Shown here: positions 5,337 to 14,106 of the stretch, in pieces
Layout: every line of letters starts with the position of its first letter
Position numbering within the stretch: the first letter of the stretch is position 1
Origin: Gemmatimonadaceae bacterium
Lineage (GTDB): Bacteria > Gemmatimonadota > Gemmatimonadetes > Gemmatimonadales > Gemmatimonadaceae
Assembly (NCBI GenBank): GCA_036273715.1
Contig: DASUHB010000055.1
Span: forward strand, 1 to 41,353
DNA length: 41,353 bases
Direction of reading: 5' to 3'
Made by a program: the position numbers and the translations under genes
Notes under the pieces: model-generated
Database searches by the model: none
What the model was told of the DNA's origin: nothing
What the model saw: the letters and a program-made list of their open reading frames with translations, nothing else

Positions 5337-7289
5337 TCACTCCACCAGAATGGGCACTCTGACCATGAGCTGCCCCGACCTGGTTCGAACTTCCAGCAGG
5401 AGGTGCCCCGGCTCGACCGGACGGTAGTCGAAGTCGTAGGTCTCGCCTATGCCGACGATCTGTCGCGCGCGCCGGACGCGCTGCGCCACACCAGGCAGAT
5501 CGAACCCGTCCTTGGCGACCTCGCGCCACTCGGCCACCATGGTATCGCGCGCCAGGTTGAACGCGCTGTCGGGACGCGTCGTGAGCGAAAAAACGGGCGC
5601 CACGTTGAATGTCGACAGGTTGATCAGCCGCACTCGTGCCGGCCGACCGACGTGCAGGATGACCGTGTCCGGGTTCACTTGCCCGTTGATCTCGAGCGGG
5701 AATCCCTCGTCGTTGATTGCGCCCTTGAGGAAGAAGGCGTGGTCATCGGCCGATGGCGCTGTGCCGGAATCGCGCACGACCAACGTTCCCTCGAGGCCGG
5801 CAACCTGCTCGCGCAGCTCATCGAAGTGCGCGTGATACATGAACGTTCCGGAACGCGGCGGCGTGAACTGCACGGTGAACGAATCGCCCGGCGCGATGCT
5901 CGGCGCGAGATGATTGCCGGCGCCGCTGAAGCCCGGCACTCCATCCACGTAGCTGTCCTCCACTTCGATGCCGTGCCAGTGGACACTGGTGGGCTGCGCG
6001 AGGTGGTTCACGATCGTGATCGACACCGGCTCATTGCGCGTGAGATCCAGCTCGGGACTCATCTGCGGCCTTCCTTCGACCCGACGACCCTGTTCCTCGA
6101 GCACGAAGTGCATCGTCGGCAACGTGTCCTGCCCGCCGCCTGCTACCAGGACCTGACCGGCTTCCGCAATGAGTCGCAGCCGGCGAAGCGGCGCCGGCGC
6201 GGCAGCAACATGAGCGCCGGGTCGATCGGCGACCACCACGCCCAATGCCATACCCGACATGTCTCGCATCCGCGCCGTTCCGCGGTTCTGCCGAACTTGA
6301 GGCGGATCGAGAAAGGGGTCGCTCTCCAGGTGAAACGCGATGTGGCAGTGGAAGAACCAGTTCCCCGGCCGATCCGGTGACCAGGTCATGGACATGGAGG
6401 AAAGGGGCGGCAGGATTTGGGTCACGACCAACTCGCCTGGCCCCGGCCGTGGGAAACGCGCCGACAGTCCTCCCGTGAGCGTGTCGACGCGAAAATAGAA
6501 GCCGTGCATGTGCATGGCATGCAGCTGCTCCGACGCGTTGATCACGCGCCAATGCAGGCTGTCGCCGGCGGTAGCGCGGATCCGTTCTGTGTTAGGCCAC
6601 GTGAGGCCGTTGATCGTGTAGGTGAACCGGCCGCCGACGCCGCGTCGCAGCGCCGCCAGCTCGGACGGCGAAGGGGTGTGGCCGAGGGAGTTGACGCCGT
6701 CCACCCACTGCGTGTCGGGCAGCGCCATGATCACGAGCACGCGATCGCGCACCGGAGCGCCTACGCCAGCGGTGTCGATCACGATGGCGCCCGCCAGCGC
6801 CCCGGTCACCTCGGCCAGTCGACTCGCGTAATCGGGAGCGGTGGCGCGGTACACGTAGTTGCCGGCCACCGAGGCAGTGGTCGTGAACTGCCTATCCGCG
6901 CCCGCAGGCACGACCACGGAATCCATCACATCGGGTTCCGAGCTGCCGTGGATCGCCGCCGGCACGATGAAGGTGAGTGGCGCCGACAGCGTGTTGCGCA
7001 GCGACAGACGGAGCTCCGTGCCCTGCGGCGCTCGAATCAGCGGCCCGGGCACCAGCGGGGCCTTACCGGCCTCCGAGAACGCGGCGAGCGGCAGCGGGAC
7101 CTGATGCGAACCGACTGCGATCCACTGGGTCTGCTTGGCTTCGAGGGCGACAGTGAGGACGCCACGCTCCAGGCGGCCGGCTCGGTCGACGTTGCGATTT
7201 GGCTCTGCGGTCGGTAGCGCACGCCGGGGCAGTGAGCCCAAGACGGTTGTCACGATACCCGCGATCGCGACGAAGCGGCTAACGCTCAT
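5337..7289 (-). CDS. secreted multicopper oxidase with permuted copper-motif order
   Basis: 650 residues with an N-terminal signal-like segment (MSVSRFVAIAGIVTTVLGSL). Several cupredoxin domains are visible. The T1/T3 motifs usually found at the C-terminus of laccases come first: HAMHMH (H257, H260, H262) and HCHIAFH (H314, C315, H316, H320). The motifs usually N-terminal come later: HWHG (H437, H439) and YHAH (H486, H488). Together these give ten His and one Cys, a full set for type 1, 2 and 3 copper, so the enzyme can plausibly oxidise phenols or metals with oxygen in the periplasm. The first domain keeps only a trace of the pattern (IHGS at 113-116). The ribosome binding site GAGGTG lies 7 bases before the ATG. 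The gene is divergent from the aldolase gene and not linked to visible copper-resistance genes. Confidence 0.92.
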   Translation of the reverse strand: MSVSRFVAIAGIVTTVLGSLPRRALPTAEPNRNVDRAGRLERGVLTVALEAKQTQWIAVGSHQVPLPLAAFSEAGKAPLVPGPLIRAPQGTELRLSLRNTLSAPLTFIVPAAIHGSSEPDVMDSVVVPAGADRQFTTTASVAGNYVYRATAPDYASRLAEVTGALAGAIVIDTAGVGAPVRDRVLVIMALPDTQWVDGVNSLGHTPSPSELAALRRGVGGRFTYTINGLTWPNTERIRATAGDSLHWRVINASEQLHAMHMHGFYFRVDTLTGGLSARFPRPGPGELVVTQILPPLSSMSMTWSPDRPGNWFFHCHIAFHLESDPFLDPPQVRQNRGTARMRDMSGMALGVVVADRPGAHVAAAPAPLRRLRLIAEAGQVLVAGGGQDTLPTMHFVLEEQGRRVEGRPQMSPELDLTRNEPVSITIVNHLAQPTSVHWHGIEVEDSYVDGVPGFSGAGNHLAPSIAPGDSFTVQFTPPRSGTFMYHAHFDELREQVAGLEGTLVVRDSGTAPSADDHAFFLKGAINDEGFPLEINGQVNPDTVILHVGRPARVRLINLSTFNVAPVFSLTTRPDSAFNLARDTMVAEWREVAKDGFDLPGVAQRVRRARQIVGIGETYDFDYRPVEPGHLLLEVRTRSGQLMVRVPILVE

Positions 7290-7441
7290 GAAGACACCTC
7301 AATTATGGGTGCGCACACGAGTTCCATCACGCGTTCGACATTCCGAGGCGAGCGCCCGTGGACCGGTGCTGGTAATGGCGGGGTGACGTGGTCCTGCACG
7401 GCCACTACGCTGGGAAACACTCGTAACTCAGCCGTTTGCAT

Positions 7442-7464
7442 GCCGTCACTCGTCGGGTGACGGC
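7442..7464. promoter_or_regulatory. 8-bp perfect inverted repeat, possible operator
   Basis: GCCGTCAC (7442-7449) and GTGACGGC (7457-7464) are exact reverse complements with a 7-base spacer. It lies about 150 bp upstream of the oxidase start and has no T tract, so an operator is more likely than a terminator. Chance occurrence in GC-rich DNA is possible. Confidence 0.3.
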
Positions 7465-7523
7465 CGCCGAGCGAGAAGAACTCGCGCGCGCGAACGAAGC
7501 GCCGCGGCACCGCGATCGGGGCG

Positions 7524-7568
7524 CATCAGAGAGTTTTTGCCTACTAAGTAGGCAAAAACTCTCTGATG
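7524..7568. repeat. 45-bp dispersed palindrome, copy 1
   Basis: Perfect inverted repeat with 22-bp arms and one central base. The right arm core GTAGGCAAAAACTC is identical in all three copies in this window. Compared with copies 2 and 3, the outer part reads CATCAGAGAG instead of CATCATGGAG, and the right arm carries the matching changes, so pairing is kept. It lies 114 bp upstream of the aldolase gene. Confidence 0.88.
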
Positions 7569-7681
7569 ATCGACGCGCGGATCCTGTCGCGCCCGTTCGA
7601 TGGCGGTCGCGCCCGTTGCGCCCGCGACCCGTCGGCGCCCCGCGCCATCACGCCGCGTCGCAACGGCTATCTTTAGCGCCC

Positions 7682-9739
7682 ATGAACGTCGACGACCGTT
7701 GGAAAGGCGGACCGCCCGGCGCGAGCGCCGATGCGCTCGACCAACTGGTCTACCTCTCCAACCTCATCGGTCTCGAAACCCGGCTCGTGCAGCCGGGCGG
7801 CGGCAACACATCCATCAAGATCGGGGATGAGTTGTTCGTCAAAGGAAGCGGCACCGACCTGCGCACGATCGGCCGGTCGGGATTCACACGCCTGTCGCTG
7901 CCGGCACTGGCGTCGCTCGGAACCGTCGAGTCGATGCGCGACGACGAGATGATGCGGTTGATGGCGCGGTGCATGACGGATCCCGGCGGCCCGACTCCGA
8001 GCGTCGAGACTCCGTTGCACTCGCTCATGCCCAACCGGGTGATCGCGCACACGCACGACGTCGCGACGATGAGCCTCACCGACATCGACGACGCCACGGC
8101 GGCGCGGCTGGTACGCGACGTGTTAGGCGGCGAAATCACCTATGTGCCGTACGTGCGCCCCGGCTTCCCGTTGGCCAAAGCGGTGGCGCGCATGGCCGGC
8201 CGCCTGCCGCCGGGCACGATCGGGCTTGCACTGGCGCATCACGGCCTGATGGTGTGGGCAGACGATGCGCGCGAGTGTTACGCACGCTTGCTCCGCACCG
8301 TAAACCGCATCGAGGACTTCCTGGCCGCGAAGCGGCGCGCGCGGCCGGCGCCCCCGGTGATCGCGGATCGCATACCGCCGGCCGATGTGCGTCGTCGTTG
8401 TGCCGAAGGGCTGCTGCCGGTCCTTCGCGGCCACCTCGGCGCGGCGAGCCGGGTCATTCTGCACTACGACGACGGCGACGACGTCCTGCACGCGATCGCC
8501 GACACACGCATGCAGGAGCTGACGCGCCGCGGGATGGCCACGCCCGAGCACATCCTGCGCGCCGGCCGGCTCCCCCTCTGGTTGAGCATCGACCCGTCGA
8601 TTGCGCCGGAGGAGTTGGCCACAGCCGCACGCGCGCAGCTGTCGAGCCAGCACGCGGAGTACGAGGCGAATCACGCCCGACATGCGGCGCCGGGCGAGCG
8701 CCCCCTCGACGATTGGGCCAAGGTGCTGCTCGTGCCCGGACTCGGAATGATCACCGCGTCGCGGGACAAGCGCGGCGCGATCACGGCGAACACGTGCTAT
8801 CGCGCTGTGCTCGAGACGATCGCGAACGCCGCAGCAATCGACGCGTTCAATTTCATCGCCGAGTCAGAGGTGTTCGAGTTCGAGCACTGGCCGCTCGAGC
8901 GCCGCAAGATCGACGAGCAGGATGCGCGCGAACGCGCCACCCTGCTCTTGCCGCGCCACGTGGCCGTGATCGTCGGCGGCGCGAGCGGAATCGGCAAAGC
9001 CGCCGCGCACCGCTTCGCGAACGAAGGCGCGCACGTCGTCGTGGCCGACCTCGATGGGCCGGCCGCCGAAGCGGTCGCGTCGGACATATGCCTAACGCAC
9101 AAGGGCCGCGCCATCGCCGTCACGCTCGACGTGCGCGACGACGCGAGTCTTGGCGCGCTCGTGCAGCAGACCGTGTTGGCGTTCGGCGGCATCGATTCGT
9201 TGTTCTACACCGCCGGCCAGGCGCCGCGATTCGCCCGCGTGACGGCGCTGCGGCGCGACGAGCTCCAGCGGCAGGTGGACGTGCACTACATGGGTGCCGT
9301 GCTCGCCATGGGCGCCGCTGCCACGGTAATGCAACGGCAGCGGCTCGGTGGGTCGATCGTCGCGTCGGTGTCCAAGGCGGCGGTCGCGCCCGGCCGCGAT
9401 GCCGCCGCGTACGGGGGAAGCAAGGCCGCGCTGCTCCAGGCGATGCGCGTCGCCGCCGTCGAGTTAGGCGGCGACGGCATTCGCGTCAACGCCATCAACG
9501 CCGATCAGGTGGAGACGCCGCTCTTCCTGCGCTTCGTCCAGGAACGCGCCGCGATGCGGGGCGTGACGCCGGAGCAGCAATTGGAGACGTATCGCAGCCG
9601 GAATGCCATGGGCGTGTCGCTCATTCCGGCCGAGTCGGTGGCCGGCGTCGCCGCGCTGCTGGCGAGCGAGCGCTTCCGCTACACCACGGGCGACATCATC
9701 ACGATCGACGGCGGCCTGTCCGACGCGTTTCCGCGATAG
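7682..9739 (+). CDS. rhaD: bifunctional class II aldolase / short-chain dehydrogenase (rhamnulose-1-phosphate aldolase/lactaldehyde dehydrogenase type)
   Basis: 685 residues. The N-terminal class II aldolase/adducin domain has the phosphate loop GGGNTSIK (39-46), zinc ligands in IAHTHDVATM and LALAHHGLMVW, and a long insertion typical of the bifunctional RhaD/RhaE-type enzymes. The C-terminal SDR domain has the nucleotide loop GGASGIGKAAA (about 428-438), a VADLDG strand-2 end and the catalytic Ser, then YGGSK with Tyr near 577 and Lys near 581. In the nonphosphorylated or phosphorylated rhamnose pathway such fusions cleave rhamnulose-1-phosphate and process lactaldehyde. No other rhamnose gene is nearby, so the substrate is inferred from family only. 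The ATG at 7682 begins the conserved part; no strong ribosome binding site is seen. Confidence 0.88.
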   Translation: MNVDDRWKGGPPGASADALDQLVYLSNLIGLETRLVQPGGGNTSIKIGDELFVKGSGTDLRTIGRSGFTRLSLPALASLGTVESMRDDEMMRLMARCMTDPGGPTPSVETPLHSLMPNRVIAHTHDVATMSLTDIDDATAARLVRDVLGGEITYVPYVRPGFPLAKAVARMAGRLPPGTIGLALAHHGLMVWADDARECYARLLRTVNRIEDFLAAKRRARPAPPVIADRIPPADVRRRCAEGLLPVLRGHLGAASRVILHYDDGDDVLHAIADTRMQELTRRGMATPEHILRAGRLPLWLSIDPSIAPEELATAARAQLSSQHAEYEANHARHAAPGERPLDDWAKVLLVPGLGMITASRDKRGAITANTCYRAVLETIANAAAIDAFNFIAESEVFEFEHWPLERRKIDEQDARERATLLLPRHVAVIVGGASGIGKAAAHRFANEGAHVVVADLDGPAAEAVASDICLTHKGRAIAVTLDVRDDASLGALVQQTVLAFGGIDSLFYTAGQAPRFARVTALRRDELQRQVDVHYMGAVLAMGAAATVMQRQRLGGSIVASVSKAAVAPGRDAAAYGGSKAALLQAMRVAAVELGGDGIRVNAINADQVETPLFLRFVQERAAMRGVTPEQQLETYRSRNAMGVSLIPAESVAGVAALLASERFRYTTGDIITIDGGLSDAFPR

Positions 9740-11574: not shown

Positions 11575-14106
11575 TCAGCGGCGCGCCGCATCGAGCTTGT
11601 CGAGCACCTGGCGCGCGAGGCGGCTCTGGATGACGAGCGGCGCATCAGCGTCACGTGCCACATCGGCCCGCAGCTGTTCCAGAGCGAACGCGCCCGTCAG
11701 ATCCTCGCCGGCGAGGCGCAGCGTTAGGACAGGGCTCTCGAGCGCCGCGCGGGCCGCCGCCAGTACGCGCGCCGAGTCGCCGGCGGGCACCGAGTCTCTC
11801 ATCGCCGCGAGGTCGCCGAGCGCGCTCGAGCGGATGTCCTCTCGTACGCCGGGTTGCGACGCATCGAGCAACACGGACGCCGCGCGTGGATCCTGCGTTG
11901 CGGCCAGCGCCGCGAGCACGGCCTTGAACACATGGACCTCGGGTCCCGATCGCACCTCCGCCGCGAGCACCGCTTCGGCGTTCGGGTTCCGCGATCGGCC
12001 GATGCCGCGAGCAGCCGCGGCCGCGACGGCATAGCTGGAATCTCCGTGCATCGCGTTCGCGAGCGCCGCGTAGACATCGCTGTCGCCGCTCGAGCGGCCC
12101 AAGCCCGACGCGGCGGCGGCGCGCACGCGGCTGTCGGGCTGCGTCCGCAGGGCGTCGACGAGGGCAGCCCGCGCGTCCCTCGATCCGATGCGGCCGAGCG
12201 ACGCCGCGGCCGCGGCACGGACCCCGTAGAAGGCATCGGTGCCGAGCACCTGCGCCAGCGCGCGAACGCGCCCGCCTAACGCAGAATCTCCCATGGCGCC
12301 GAGCTGCTCGGCTGCGCCTAACCGGCTCATCATGTGCCGGTCGCGCTCCGCTTTGGCCGCGAGCGCCGCGACCGGCTGCGGAAAGTCCAGCGTCTTGTCG
12401 ATGAAGCCGTCGGGATCGAAGTCCACCCAGGCGGGCGCGAACGCGAGCGGAATCTCGAAGTCCTGCGACGCCAGCGAATCTTCCACCTGCACCGTCCGGG
12501 ACTCCGCGCCCGCGCCGTGGAAGGCGAGCTCGACCGGCATCCGGAACAGCGGCGTCAGCGAATCGACGCGCTGCACCTGTTCCACGTGGACCAGCTCGAC
12601 GCGTCGCGTCGAATCGTGCCGCGCCGACACCCGGTAGCTCGGCGTGCCCGCCATGAAGACCCACTGGTGAAAGAACCAGCCTAACTCCAGCCCCGTGGAT
12701 TCCCGCAACGCATCGATGAGCGTGCTCGTCGTCGCCGTATGCGTGTGGTGGAGCGCCAGGTAGTGGTGGAGGGCGCGAAAGAACGGCTCGCGCTGCGACG
12801 CCGGGTGGCTGGCCGCCGAAGACCCATCGACGACGTAGCGCAGCATGTCGAGCACGGCGGCGCCCTTCTCGTGCGTGATCGCGTCGAACATGTCTAACGG
12901 ATCGTCGTAGTGGCGGTCGACGATCGGGCGGAGATAGTCGCGGCGGTCCTGCGCCCGGGCCAGCTCTTCGTCCTGCAGCATCTCGTAGCGGAAGGCATCG
13001 TTGCCCTCGTGGTGCTGCGTGTACAGCGCTTCCATGTACGTCGCGAATCCCTCGTTGAGCCAGATGTCGGCCCAGTCGCGGCCCTGTACGTCGTCGCCGA
13101 ACCATTCCTGCCCCAGCTCGTGCGCCACGAGCGCGGTGCTGGGGTAGTCGGCGTCCGCGCGCGCGTCGTGCAGCGTGTTGTCGGTGAGCGTCGTCGCGCT
13201 CACGTTCTCCTGTCCGCCGAACAGATAGTCGTGGACCGTGGTTTGCGCGTACTGTTCGTACGGATACGGCACACCCGTCGCCCGGCCGAAGAACGCGATC
13301 ATGTCGGGCGTTAGGCGGAAGGACCGGCGGATGGTGGCCGTGTCGACGGTCCGCGGCGCGTAGTACGCCACCGGCGTCGCTCCAGCGTGGTCGGAGATCT
13401 TGCGCCACGGCCCAACGGCGAGCGAGATCAGATACGAGCTGTGCGGTACGCGCTCGACCCAGTCGTACGTGGTCGTGTGCGCGCCATGCGTCACCCGCAC
13501 CAGGCGGCCGTTGGACACCACGACCTGTCCCGCGGGGACGGTGGTGATGGTCTCGCTGGTCGCCATGTCGTTCGGGTAGTCCCAGCACGGGAACCAGTAG
13601 TGGTTGAGCTCGGGCTCGCCCTGCGAGAACACCTCGTGCGGCGCGTTCGGGTACGCGTCGGTGGGGTTCACGAAAAAAAGGCCGGTGCGCGGTGCGCCGT
13701 GGTAGATGACGCGCACGCGCAGCGTCGCGCCGGCATCGTACGCATGGTCGAGCGTGATCCAGAGGCGCGACGGGTCCGTCGTGAACGCCAGCGGCGCGTC
13801 GGCCGCGGCCGCCCGCTCGAGGCGCACGGAATCTATCGTTAGGCCGGAGCTGTTGAAATAGAACGTGCGGAACGCGTCGCCGAATGGGCGGAGTGTGACC
13901 ACTTCGTCGCCGAACACGACGCCGTGCGGCTCGTCGAAACGCAGCGCCAGCCGGTAGTCGAGCACGTGGTAGGTGCGGCTGGGCGCCCAGTGCCACACCG
14001 CCGGATTGCCGAATGGCGGCGGCGCATGCTGGGCCGGCGCCGAGGCGGTCAGGCAGCCGGCCGTGAGCCACAGGCCGATGCTGCACGTGCGTACCACGGG
14101 TGTCAT
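11575..14106 (-). CDS. secreted M1-family aminopeptidase-like protein with C-terminal HEAT repeats and altered zinc motif
   Basis: 843 residues. The signal peptide has a lipobox-like LTAGC (14-18). The M1 catalytic domain carries GGQEN at 297-301 in place of the usual G-x-MEN, and HELGQEWFG at 329-337 followed by WLNEGFATYMEA with E352. In M1 peptidases the motif is HExxH with the distant Glu as third zinc ligand. Here the second His is Gln333 (codon CAG, 13110-13108), so zinc binding may be weakened or lost. The C-terminal third is a run of alpha-helical HEAT-like repeats (for example VRAAAAASLGRIGSRDARAAL, repeated about every 30 residues). Family assignment is firm; peptidase activity is doubtful. 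It is transcribed alone, convergent with the aspartyl protease. Confidence 0.9.
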   Translation of the reverse strand: MTPVVRTCSIGLWLTAGCLTASAPAQHAPPPFGNPAVWHWAPSRTYHVLDYRLALRFDEPHGVVFGDEVVTLRPFGDAFRTFYFNSSGLTIDSVRLERAAAADAPLAFTTDPSRLWITLDHAYDAGATLRVRVIYHGAPRTGLFFVNPTDAYPNAPHEVFSQGEPELNHYWFPCWDYPNDMATSETITTVPAGQVVVSNGRLVRVTHGAHTTTYDWVERVPHSSYLISLAVGPWRKISDHAGATPVAYYAPRTVDTATIRRSFRLTPDMIAFFGRATGVPYPYEQYAQTTVHDYLFGGQENVSATTLTDNTLHDARADADYPSTALVAHELGQEWFGDDVQGRDWADIWLNEGFATYMEALYTQHHEGNDAFRYEMLQDEELARAQDRRDYLRPIVDRHYDDPLDMFDAITHEKGAAVLDMLRYVVDGSSAASHPASQREPFFRALHHYLALHHTHTATTSTLIDALRESTGLELGWFFHQWVFMAGTPSYRVSARHDSTRRVELVHVEQVQRVDSLTPLFRMPVELAFHGAGAESRTVQVEDSLASQDFEIPLAFAPAWVDFDPDGFIDKTLDFPQPVAALAAKAERDRHMMSRLGAAEQLGAMGDSALGGRVRALAQVLGTDAFYGVRAAAAASLGRIGSRDARAALVDALRTQPDSRVRAAAASGLGRSSGDSDVYAALANAMHGDSSYAVAAAAARGIGRSRNPNAEAVLAAEVRSGPEVHVFKAVLAALAATQDPRAASVLLDASQPGVREDIRSSALGDLAAMRDSVPAGDSARVLAAARAALESPVLTLRLAGEDLTGAFALEQLRADVARDADAPLVIQSRLARQVLDKLDAARR

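Follow-up and report, generated by a model that had tools for sequence, protein, structure and literature searches.

The oxidase gene and its surroundings

The window (the whole 41,353-nucleotide stretch of Gemmatimonadaceae DNA analysed here) contains, as a single open frame on the minus strand with an ATG start, the gene of a 650-residue multicopper oxidase (Table 1). The protein carries the full set of copper ligands, ten histidines and one cysteine (H257, H260, H262, H314, C315, H316, H320, H437, H439, H486 and H488). The HxxHxH and HCHxxxH motifs (residues 257-320) lie upstream of HWHG and HxH (437-488). The Pfam domains follow suit: Cu-oxidase_2 (residues 209-323; 79.2 bits, gathering threshold 20.4) precedes Cu-oxidase_3 (411-508; 107.6 bits, gathering threshold 21), which is the reverse of the usual order. 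A frame error or a gene fusion was considered as the source of this arrangement and rejected, as there is one open frame and the same architecture is found in three paralogues of the same genome and in other phyla.

Table 1 Features of the oxidase gene. The T1, T2 and T3 roles are those we assign by homology, from knowledge of the family.
Feature	Residues	Position in the window	Strand	Basis
Complete gene of a probably secreted four-domain multicopper oxidase (650 aa)		5337..7289	-	ORF, Pfam, model
Signal peptide-like segment, no RR before the hydrophobic stretch	about 1-26	7212..7289	-	model helix 4-16
D1, D3 (Cu-oxidase_3)-type cupredoxin without copper ligands	30-178	6756..7202	-	hhalign D1-D3, model
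Decayed HxHG of D1	106-110	6960..6974	-	alignment, hhalign
D2, cupredoxin with type 1 copper and half of the trinuclear ligands	179-360	6210..6755	-	Pfam Cu-oxidase_2, model
HAMHMH, T1, T2 and T3 ligands	257-262	6504..6521	-	71/71 rows
HCHIAFH, T3, T1 (Cys), T3 and T1 ligands	314-320	6330..6350	-	71/71 rows
M344, candidate axial T1 ligand (inferred role)	344	6258..6260	-	Met in 70/71 rows
D3, cupredoxin with the other half of the trinuclear ligands	364-509	5763..6200	-	Pfam Cu-oxidase_3, model
HWHG, T2 and T3 ligands	437-440	5970..5981	-	71/71 rows
D449, at the presumed site of the proton-relay Asp	449	5943..5945	-	71/71 rows
HAH, two T3 ligands	486-488	5826..5834	-	71/71 rows
D4, D2-related cupredoxin without copper ligands	512-650	5340..5756	-	hhalign D2-D4

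The N-terminus resembles a Sec signal peptide. Of 72 frames examined, 64 have a hydrophobic N-terminus and 10 match a loose RR pattern. The loop that joins H320 to M344 (residues 321-340) is variable in the alignment and modelled with a pLDDT of 54-59. Three methionines lie at 341-347, among which M344 alone is conserved; no Met-rich segment was noticed elsewhere in the window protein. To judge from its sequence variation, this loop on the T1 side may correspond to different substrates among paralogues. The position of D449 is, we take it, that of the proton-relay aspartate of other multicopper oxidases. Some oxidases also have an acidic residue near HCHxxxH, such as E506 in CueO and E487 in Fet3p. 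No conserved acidic residue was found there in the 71-row alignment, as columns 318 and 321 are not conserved.

The oxidase gene lies between an aldolase/short-chain dehydrogenase gene and a gene for a PD40-repeat protein kinase. As these neighbours are on the opposite strand, no operon is evident. The adjoining aldolase/dehydrogenase gene (7436-9736) is a single 767-aa frame in which Aldolase_II is fused to the short-chain dehydrogenase. Further along the window, positions 11578-14106 encode an M1 metallopeptidase with C-terminal HEAT repeats. No conserved operon was found in the 46 pattern-fetched loci, although the flanks of many are short. Among frames of 110 aa or more, two recur at four or more of these loci, the oxidase at 43 and a frame that by eye is kinase-like at 6, and no recurring neighbour at the 46 loci pointed to copper or to a substrate. 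Neither a sigma-70 promoter nor a terminator was found near the gene, a result that is uninformative for this phylum.

Conservation and distribution of the family

All eleven ligand columns are invariant in the 71 aligned rows, window included, which are 30-56% identical to the window protein. Cu-oxidase_2 and Cu-oxidase_3 were both matched at E <= 0.01 in every row. For the order of the motifs, we scanned the frames of 158 loci without a motif filter and counted those with a profile E <= 1e-60 as full-length. This gave 95 full-length frames, which the removal of 16 duplicates reduced to 79 (window included), with 11 partial frames set aside. The permuted order with all four motifs was present in 79 of 79. 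At least 79 loci, those with the best matches, had been drawn from genome contigs with patterns that include two of the motifs, a bias that favours an intact D2. A permuted-order frame was also present in each of 30 loci from a whole-profile search of 298 genomes of the window's phylum; its profile was itself built from permuted paralogues, and the 30 include one of the genome's own paralogues again (L088, identical to L004) and several near-copies of pattern-fetched loci. The ligand set and order given by an earlier sequence-only reading of this DNA hold to the residue, and since the order is kept in every frame and the ligands in every row, a chance origin of the order is ruled out.

The window genome (4.34 Mb, 98.7% complete) contains four members of the family, the window copy included, and the three own paralogues share its architecture at 59, 42 and 38% identity. 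Two four-domain paralogues, L157 17286-19286 (G000 C62:29285-31285) and L158 11354-13300 (C62:42854-44800), both given as stop-to-stop frames, share a contig, with about 12 kb between them. An 810-aa oxidase frame of ordinary motif order (L005) is on this contig as well, together with frames that by eye are CcdA-like and DUF305-like. The family is separable from other oxidases because of a gap in the profile scores: 80 full-length frames reach at least 433 bits and five truncated ones 314-568 bits, with the next oxidase at 175.

To count members by phylum, we scored the best 4-9 candidates per genome with the 71-row profile, so that members may have been missed and the numbers for each genome are lower bounds. 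In the window's own phylum, Gemmatimonadota, 89 of 298 sampled genomes had a match at E <= 1e-60, the window genome included and some of the matches being fragments. Members were found in 4 of 247 genomes of the phylum of a Terriglobia locus (L014) and in 4 of 296 genomes of the phylum of Flavihumibacter profundi, the starting genome included in each case. In 140 genomes around a Polyangiaceae locus and 200 around a Rhodospirillales locus, the matches at E <= 1e-30 reached 3e-37 at best, and the matching frames measured at most 1027 aa (L141). One contig named as alphaproteobacterial (L027) has a member beside frames that by eye encode threonyl-tRNA synthetase and initiation factor 3. Among 191 matching plasmid records, one covers at least 80% of the query: the 1.1 Mb plasmid 1 of Gemmatirosa kalamazoonensis KBS708 (L154, record 418940-420655), with the same motif order. 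A scan for viral copies, which reaches close relatives only, returned one stretch that matched a pattern and was no relative.

In a quick tree of the 71 rows, those with a label group by phylum and the number of changes is small (Gemmatimonadota 4, Acidobacteriota 2, Bacteroidota 2), with 28 rows unlabelled and 20 of 68 inner branches weak. The window protein groups with L002, L009, L089 and L090 (support 100). Among the other paralogues of the same genome, L004 falls at a different place within this 19-row group and L003 in another group, and this separation suggests that the paralogues of this genome stem from old duplications. Gemmatimonadota have a probably secreted oxidase family that is apparently uncharacterised.

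Two homologous halves and a predicted four-domain fold

To compare the domains with each other, the alignment was cut at the limits given in Table 1 and the parts were compared by hhalign. The two halves, D1D2 and D3D4, match each other with an E-value of 5e-19 (probability 99.1). The best pairs of single domains are D1-D3 (2e-12), D2-D4 (5.5e-10) and D2-D3 (2.6e-9), followed by D1-D2 (2e-6), D1-D4 (7e-5) and D3-D4 (1e-4). As D2 resembles D3 nearly as well as D4, the kinship of the domains is not clean, and we regard the match of the whole halves as the stronger evidence. The alignments pair H437/H439 of D3 with T106/I108 of D1, H486/H488 with R148/T150, and H314-C315-H316 of D2 with E633-V634-R635 of D4. 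Thus, D1 and D4 have decayed at the ligand positions, and column 108 is still a histidine in 24 of 71 rows. The architecture is D1 (ligands lost)-D2-D3-D4 (ligands lost), composed of two homologous halves. This bears out the N-terminal cupredoxin with lost ligands described in the sequence-only reading, which is homologous to D3. The IHGS at residues 113-116, which that reading took for the lost motif, is not what pairs with the D3 histidines; they align with T106 and I108 instead.

We also aligned 12 hand-chosen ordinary-order oxidases to each half. Eleven of them align in one stretch across D1D2 (110-166 bits) and ten, including the three-domain L086, in one stretch across most of D3D4 (72-144 bits). 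L086 is split on D1D2, whilst L070 and L078 are partial or split on D3D4. L061 reaches 166 bits on D1D2 and 138 bits on D3D4. L061, L062 and L063 are short two-domain oxidases that rank among the best of the 12 on both halves; their contig titles name Woesebacteria, an unclassified bacterium and Levyibacteriota, respectively. Permutation after duplication, as proposed from the sequence alone, agrees with the homology of the halves and with the alignment of two-domain oxidases to both, although that proposal had missed the decayed C-terminal D4.

AlphaFold2, run on the 71-row alignment, predicted a four-domain fold with a pLDDT of 88.1 and a pTM of 0.89. The first 17 Foldseek matches to this model were ceruloplasmin, factors V and VIII, the venom factor V-like protein and MnxG, characterized by E-values of 1.1e-34 to 8.6e-28 and query TM-scores of 0.53-0.62. 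MnxG (9bxa_A) was the last of these, at rank 17 (8.6e-28), behind ceruloplasmin and most factor V/VIII entries, and the first three-domain oxidase followed at 7.9e-23. VIA-align superimposed residues 43-650 of the window protein onto residues 1-697 of ceruloplasmin (4enz), which we take to be domains 1-4, with Z 27.0 and an rmsd of 4.5 Å over 511 residues. Other matches were the venom factor V-like protein 4bxs_V (Z 25.5) and factor VIII 4bdv_A (Z 20.2). The layout of the first four domains of ceruloplasmin and of factors V and VIII thus superposes on the window model.

D2-D3 modelled alone gave a pLDDT of 85.9 and a pTM of 0.83, and D2 is packed against D3 within one chain in both single-chain models. 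The D2-D3 model aligned with residues 187-548 of ceruloplasmin 4enz (Z 18.5, rmsd 4.2 Å over 289 residues), with residues 550-884 of ceruloplasmin 2j5w (Z 13.7 over 277 residues) and with residues 44-466 of the 477-residue oxidase 6xiz_A (Z 16.3, rmsd 4.3 Å over 235 residues, domain correspondence unspecified). MnxG 9bxa was again among the Foldseek matches, its aligned domains likewise unspecified. Because the D2-D3 model superposes on ceruloplasmin domain contacts, we infer that the ligands converge and that a trinuclear site lies at the D2/D3 contact. The superpositions are loose (rmsd 4-5 Å), and the aligned 2/3 contact of ceruloplasmin is without copper, so that it provides no copper-filled reference interface (PMC3600357, in excerpt).

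Relation to known oxidases and proposed origin

Multicopper oxidases are classed as two-, three- and six-domain proteins (PMC7036934, in excerpt). According to the excerpted text of PMC3600357, the trinuclear histidines lie in domains 2 and 3 in green-algal ferroxidases and in all bacterial six-domain oxidases analysed, and the bacterial six-domain (MnxG-like) proteins have a mononuclear site in domain 2 only. Ceruloplasmin has its working trinuclear site at the domain 1/6 contact, and its 2/3 contact is regarded as a former site of this kind that was lost. The same excerpts derive the six-domain proteins from two-domain ones by triplication, via a six-domain ancestor. The window family resembles the six-domain MnxG type in having trinuclear ligands in domains 2 and 3 and T1 in domain 2 only, but is set apart by domain count and length (four domains, about 650 aa). 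The path of the trinuclear site, which the sequence-only reading held to be unusual, has therefore been published for bacterial six-domain and green-algal oxidases. The permuted order is likewise already described for six-domain oxidases (PMC3600357, in excerpt), and in this part the order belongs to a known type, whilst the four-domain form would be the new part. No description of a four-domain multicopper oxidase was found in the open-licence full-text literature, in some cases among the matches listed. The six-domain set of PMC3600357, as excerpted, spans 1217-2681 aa and kept only sequences over 800 aa; such a cut would exclude the four-domain family, with its proteins of about 650 aa.

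MnxG was absent from the best 60 of 186, 181 and 159 matches in PDB sequence searches; it was also absent among the 50 VIA-align matches listed, which is no evidence of absence. Three-domain laccases, CueO and CopA share the ligand set and the multicopper oxidase superfamily with the window family, but their motif order is the reverse of that in all 79 frames and they have one domain fewer. Against the six NCBIfam models listed, the window protein stays far below every cut-off, with 105.5 bits against 478.95 for copper_res_A, 58.5 against 525 for CueO and 41.6 against 558.9 for laccase. IoxA is described as phylogenetically distinct (PMC9415286, in excerpt). It belongs to an iox cluster with SCO1/SenC genes. 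The recurring frames at our 46 loci are the oxidase and the kinase-like frame, and L027 by eye has other genes around it. Two-domain (SLAC-like) oxidases align to both halves of the window protein and likewise have T1 in the second domain of the unit, but they have one such unit per chain; the window family has two, with complementary loss.

Taken together, we consider it highly probable that the protein is a secreted four-domain oxidase descended from a two-domain one through tandem duplication and loss of the D1 and D4 sites, leaving a single active site between D2 and D3. From the data above we infer duplication as the route, copper loading, the ligand geometry and oxidase activity. A two-domain (laccase-like) oxidase would have been duplicated in tandem, after which the outer copper sites, those of D1 and D4, would have been lost. 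Reduced substrate would give electrons to the type 1 copper of D2 (H257, C315, H320 and probably M344), from which they would pass via H314-C315-H316 to the trinuclear copper. This site would be formed at the D2/D3 interface by H260, H262, H314 and H316 of D2 and H437, H439, H486 and H488 of D3, and O2 would be reduced there to water. Two-domain oxidases build the trinuclear interface between subunits. Here, the interface would be internal to one chain, and D1 and D4 would flank it in a structural role.

Two other routes to the same motif order have to be weighed. Loss of domains 5 and 6 from an MnxG-type or algal six-domain oxidase would account for the domain 2/3 site and, for the bacterial type, for a T1 in domain 2 only (PMC3600357, in excerpt), and Foldseek matched MnxG 9bxa with both the whole model and D2-D3. 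The rank of MnxG, 17th after ceruloplasmin and most factor V/VIII entries, argues weakly against such a truncation, which we regard as unlikely. A circular permutation of a three-domain laccase (D1-D2-D3 to D3-D1-D2) with an extra N-terminal domain would explain why three-domain oxidases (e.g. 4f7k_A and 2xu9_A) align to D3-D4 with their first two domains and to D2 with their last part. It fits poorly with the hhalign E-values of D1, which is nearest to D3 (2e-12, against 2e-6 for D2 and 7e-5 for D4), and D1D2 aligns in order with two-domain oxidases, as duplication predicts. This makes circular permutation distinctly unlikely.

The location and integrity of the active site can be questioned in turn. 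An active site between chains, by domain swap or in a multi-chain ring, has a precedent in two-domain laccases, which place the trinuclear site between subunits, and the four-domain arc, being two thirds of a six-domain ring, could oligomerise. The packing of D2 against D3 in one chain, in a ceruloplasmin-like layout, speaks against it in the single-chain models, and we hold this arrangement to be very improbable. That the family consists of copper-free or inactive structural relatives might be read from the decay of two of its four domains, but is hardly credible for proteins that keep eleven invariant ligands in rows 30-56% identical to the window protein.

Returning to duplication and complementary loss, we lean towards the view that the family is an undescribed domain-count class (2, 3, 4, 6), that is, a duplicated two-domain oxidase at the four-domain stage whose outer sites decayed complementarily. 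If so, it would show directly how motif order can be permuted by duplication and loss, and how a site shared between subunits can come to lie within a single chain; steps like this have been postulated for the descent of six-domain oxidases. Multicopper oxidases would gain a further class, widespread and with a single internal trinuclear site, for which it would provide a single-chain system. The duplication-and-loss model would become testable by domain-level phylogeny and by domain removal. The copy on plasmid 1 of KBS708, coming from a named isolate, is a convenient source for expression.
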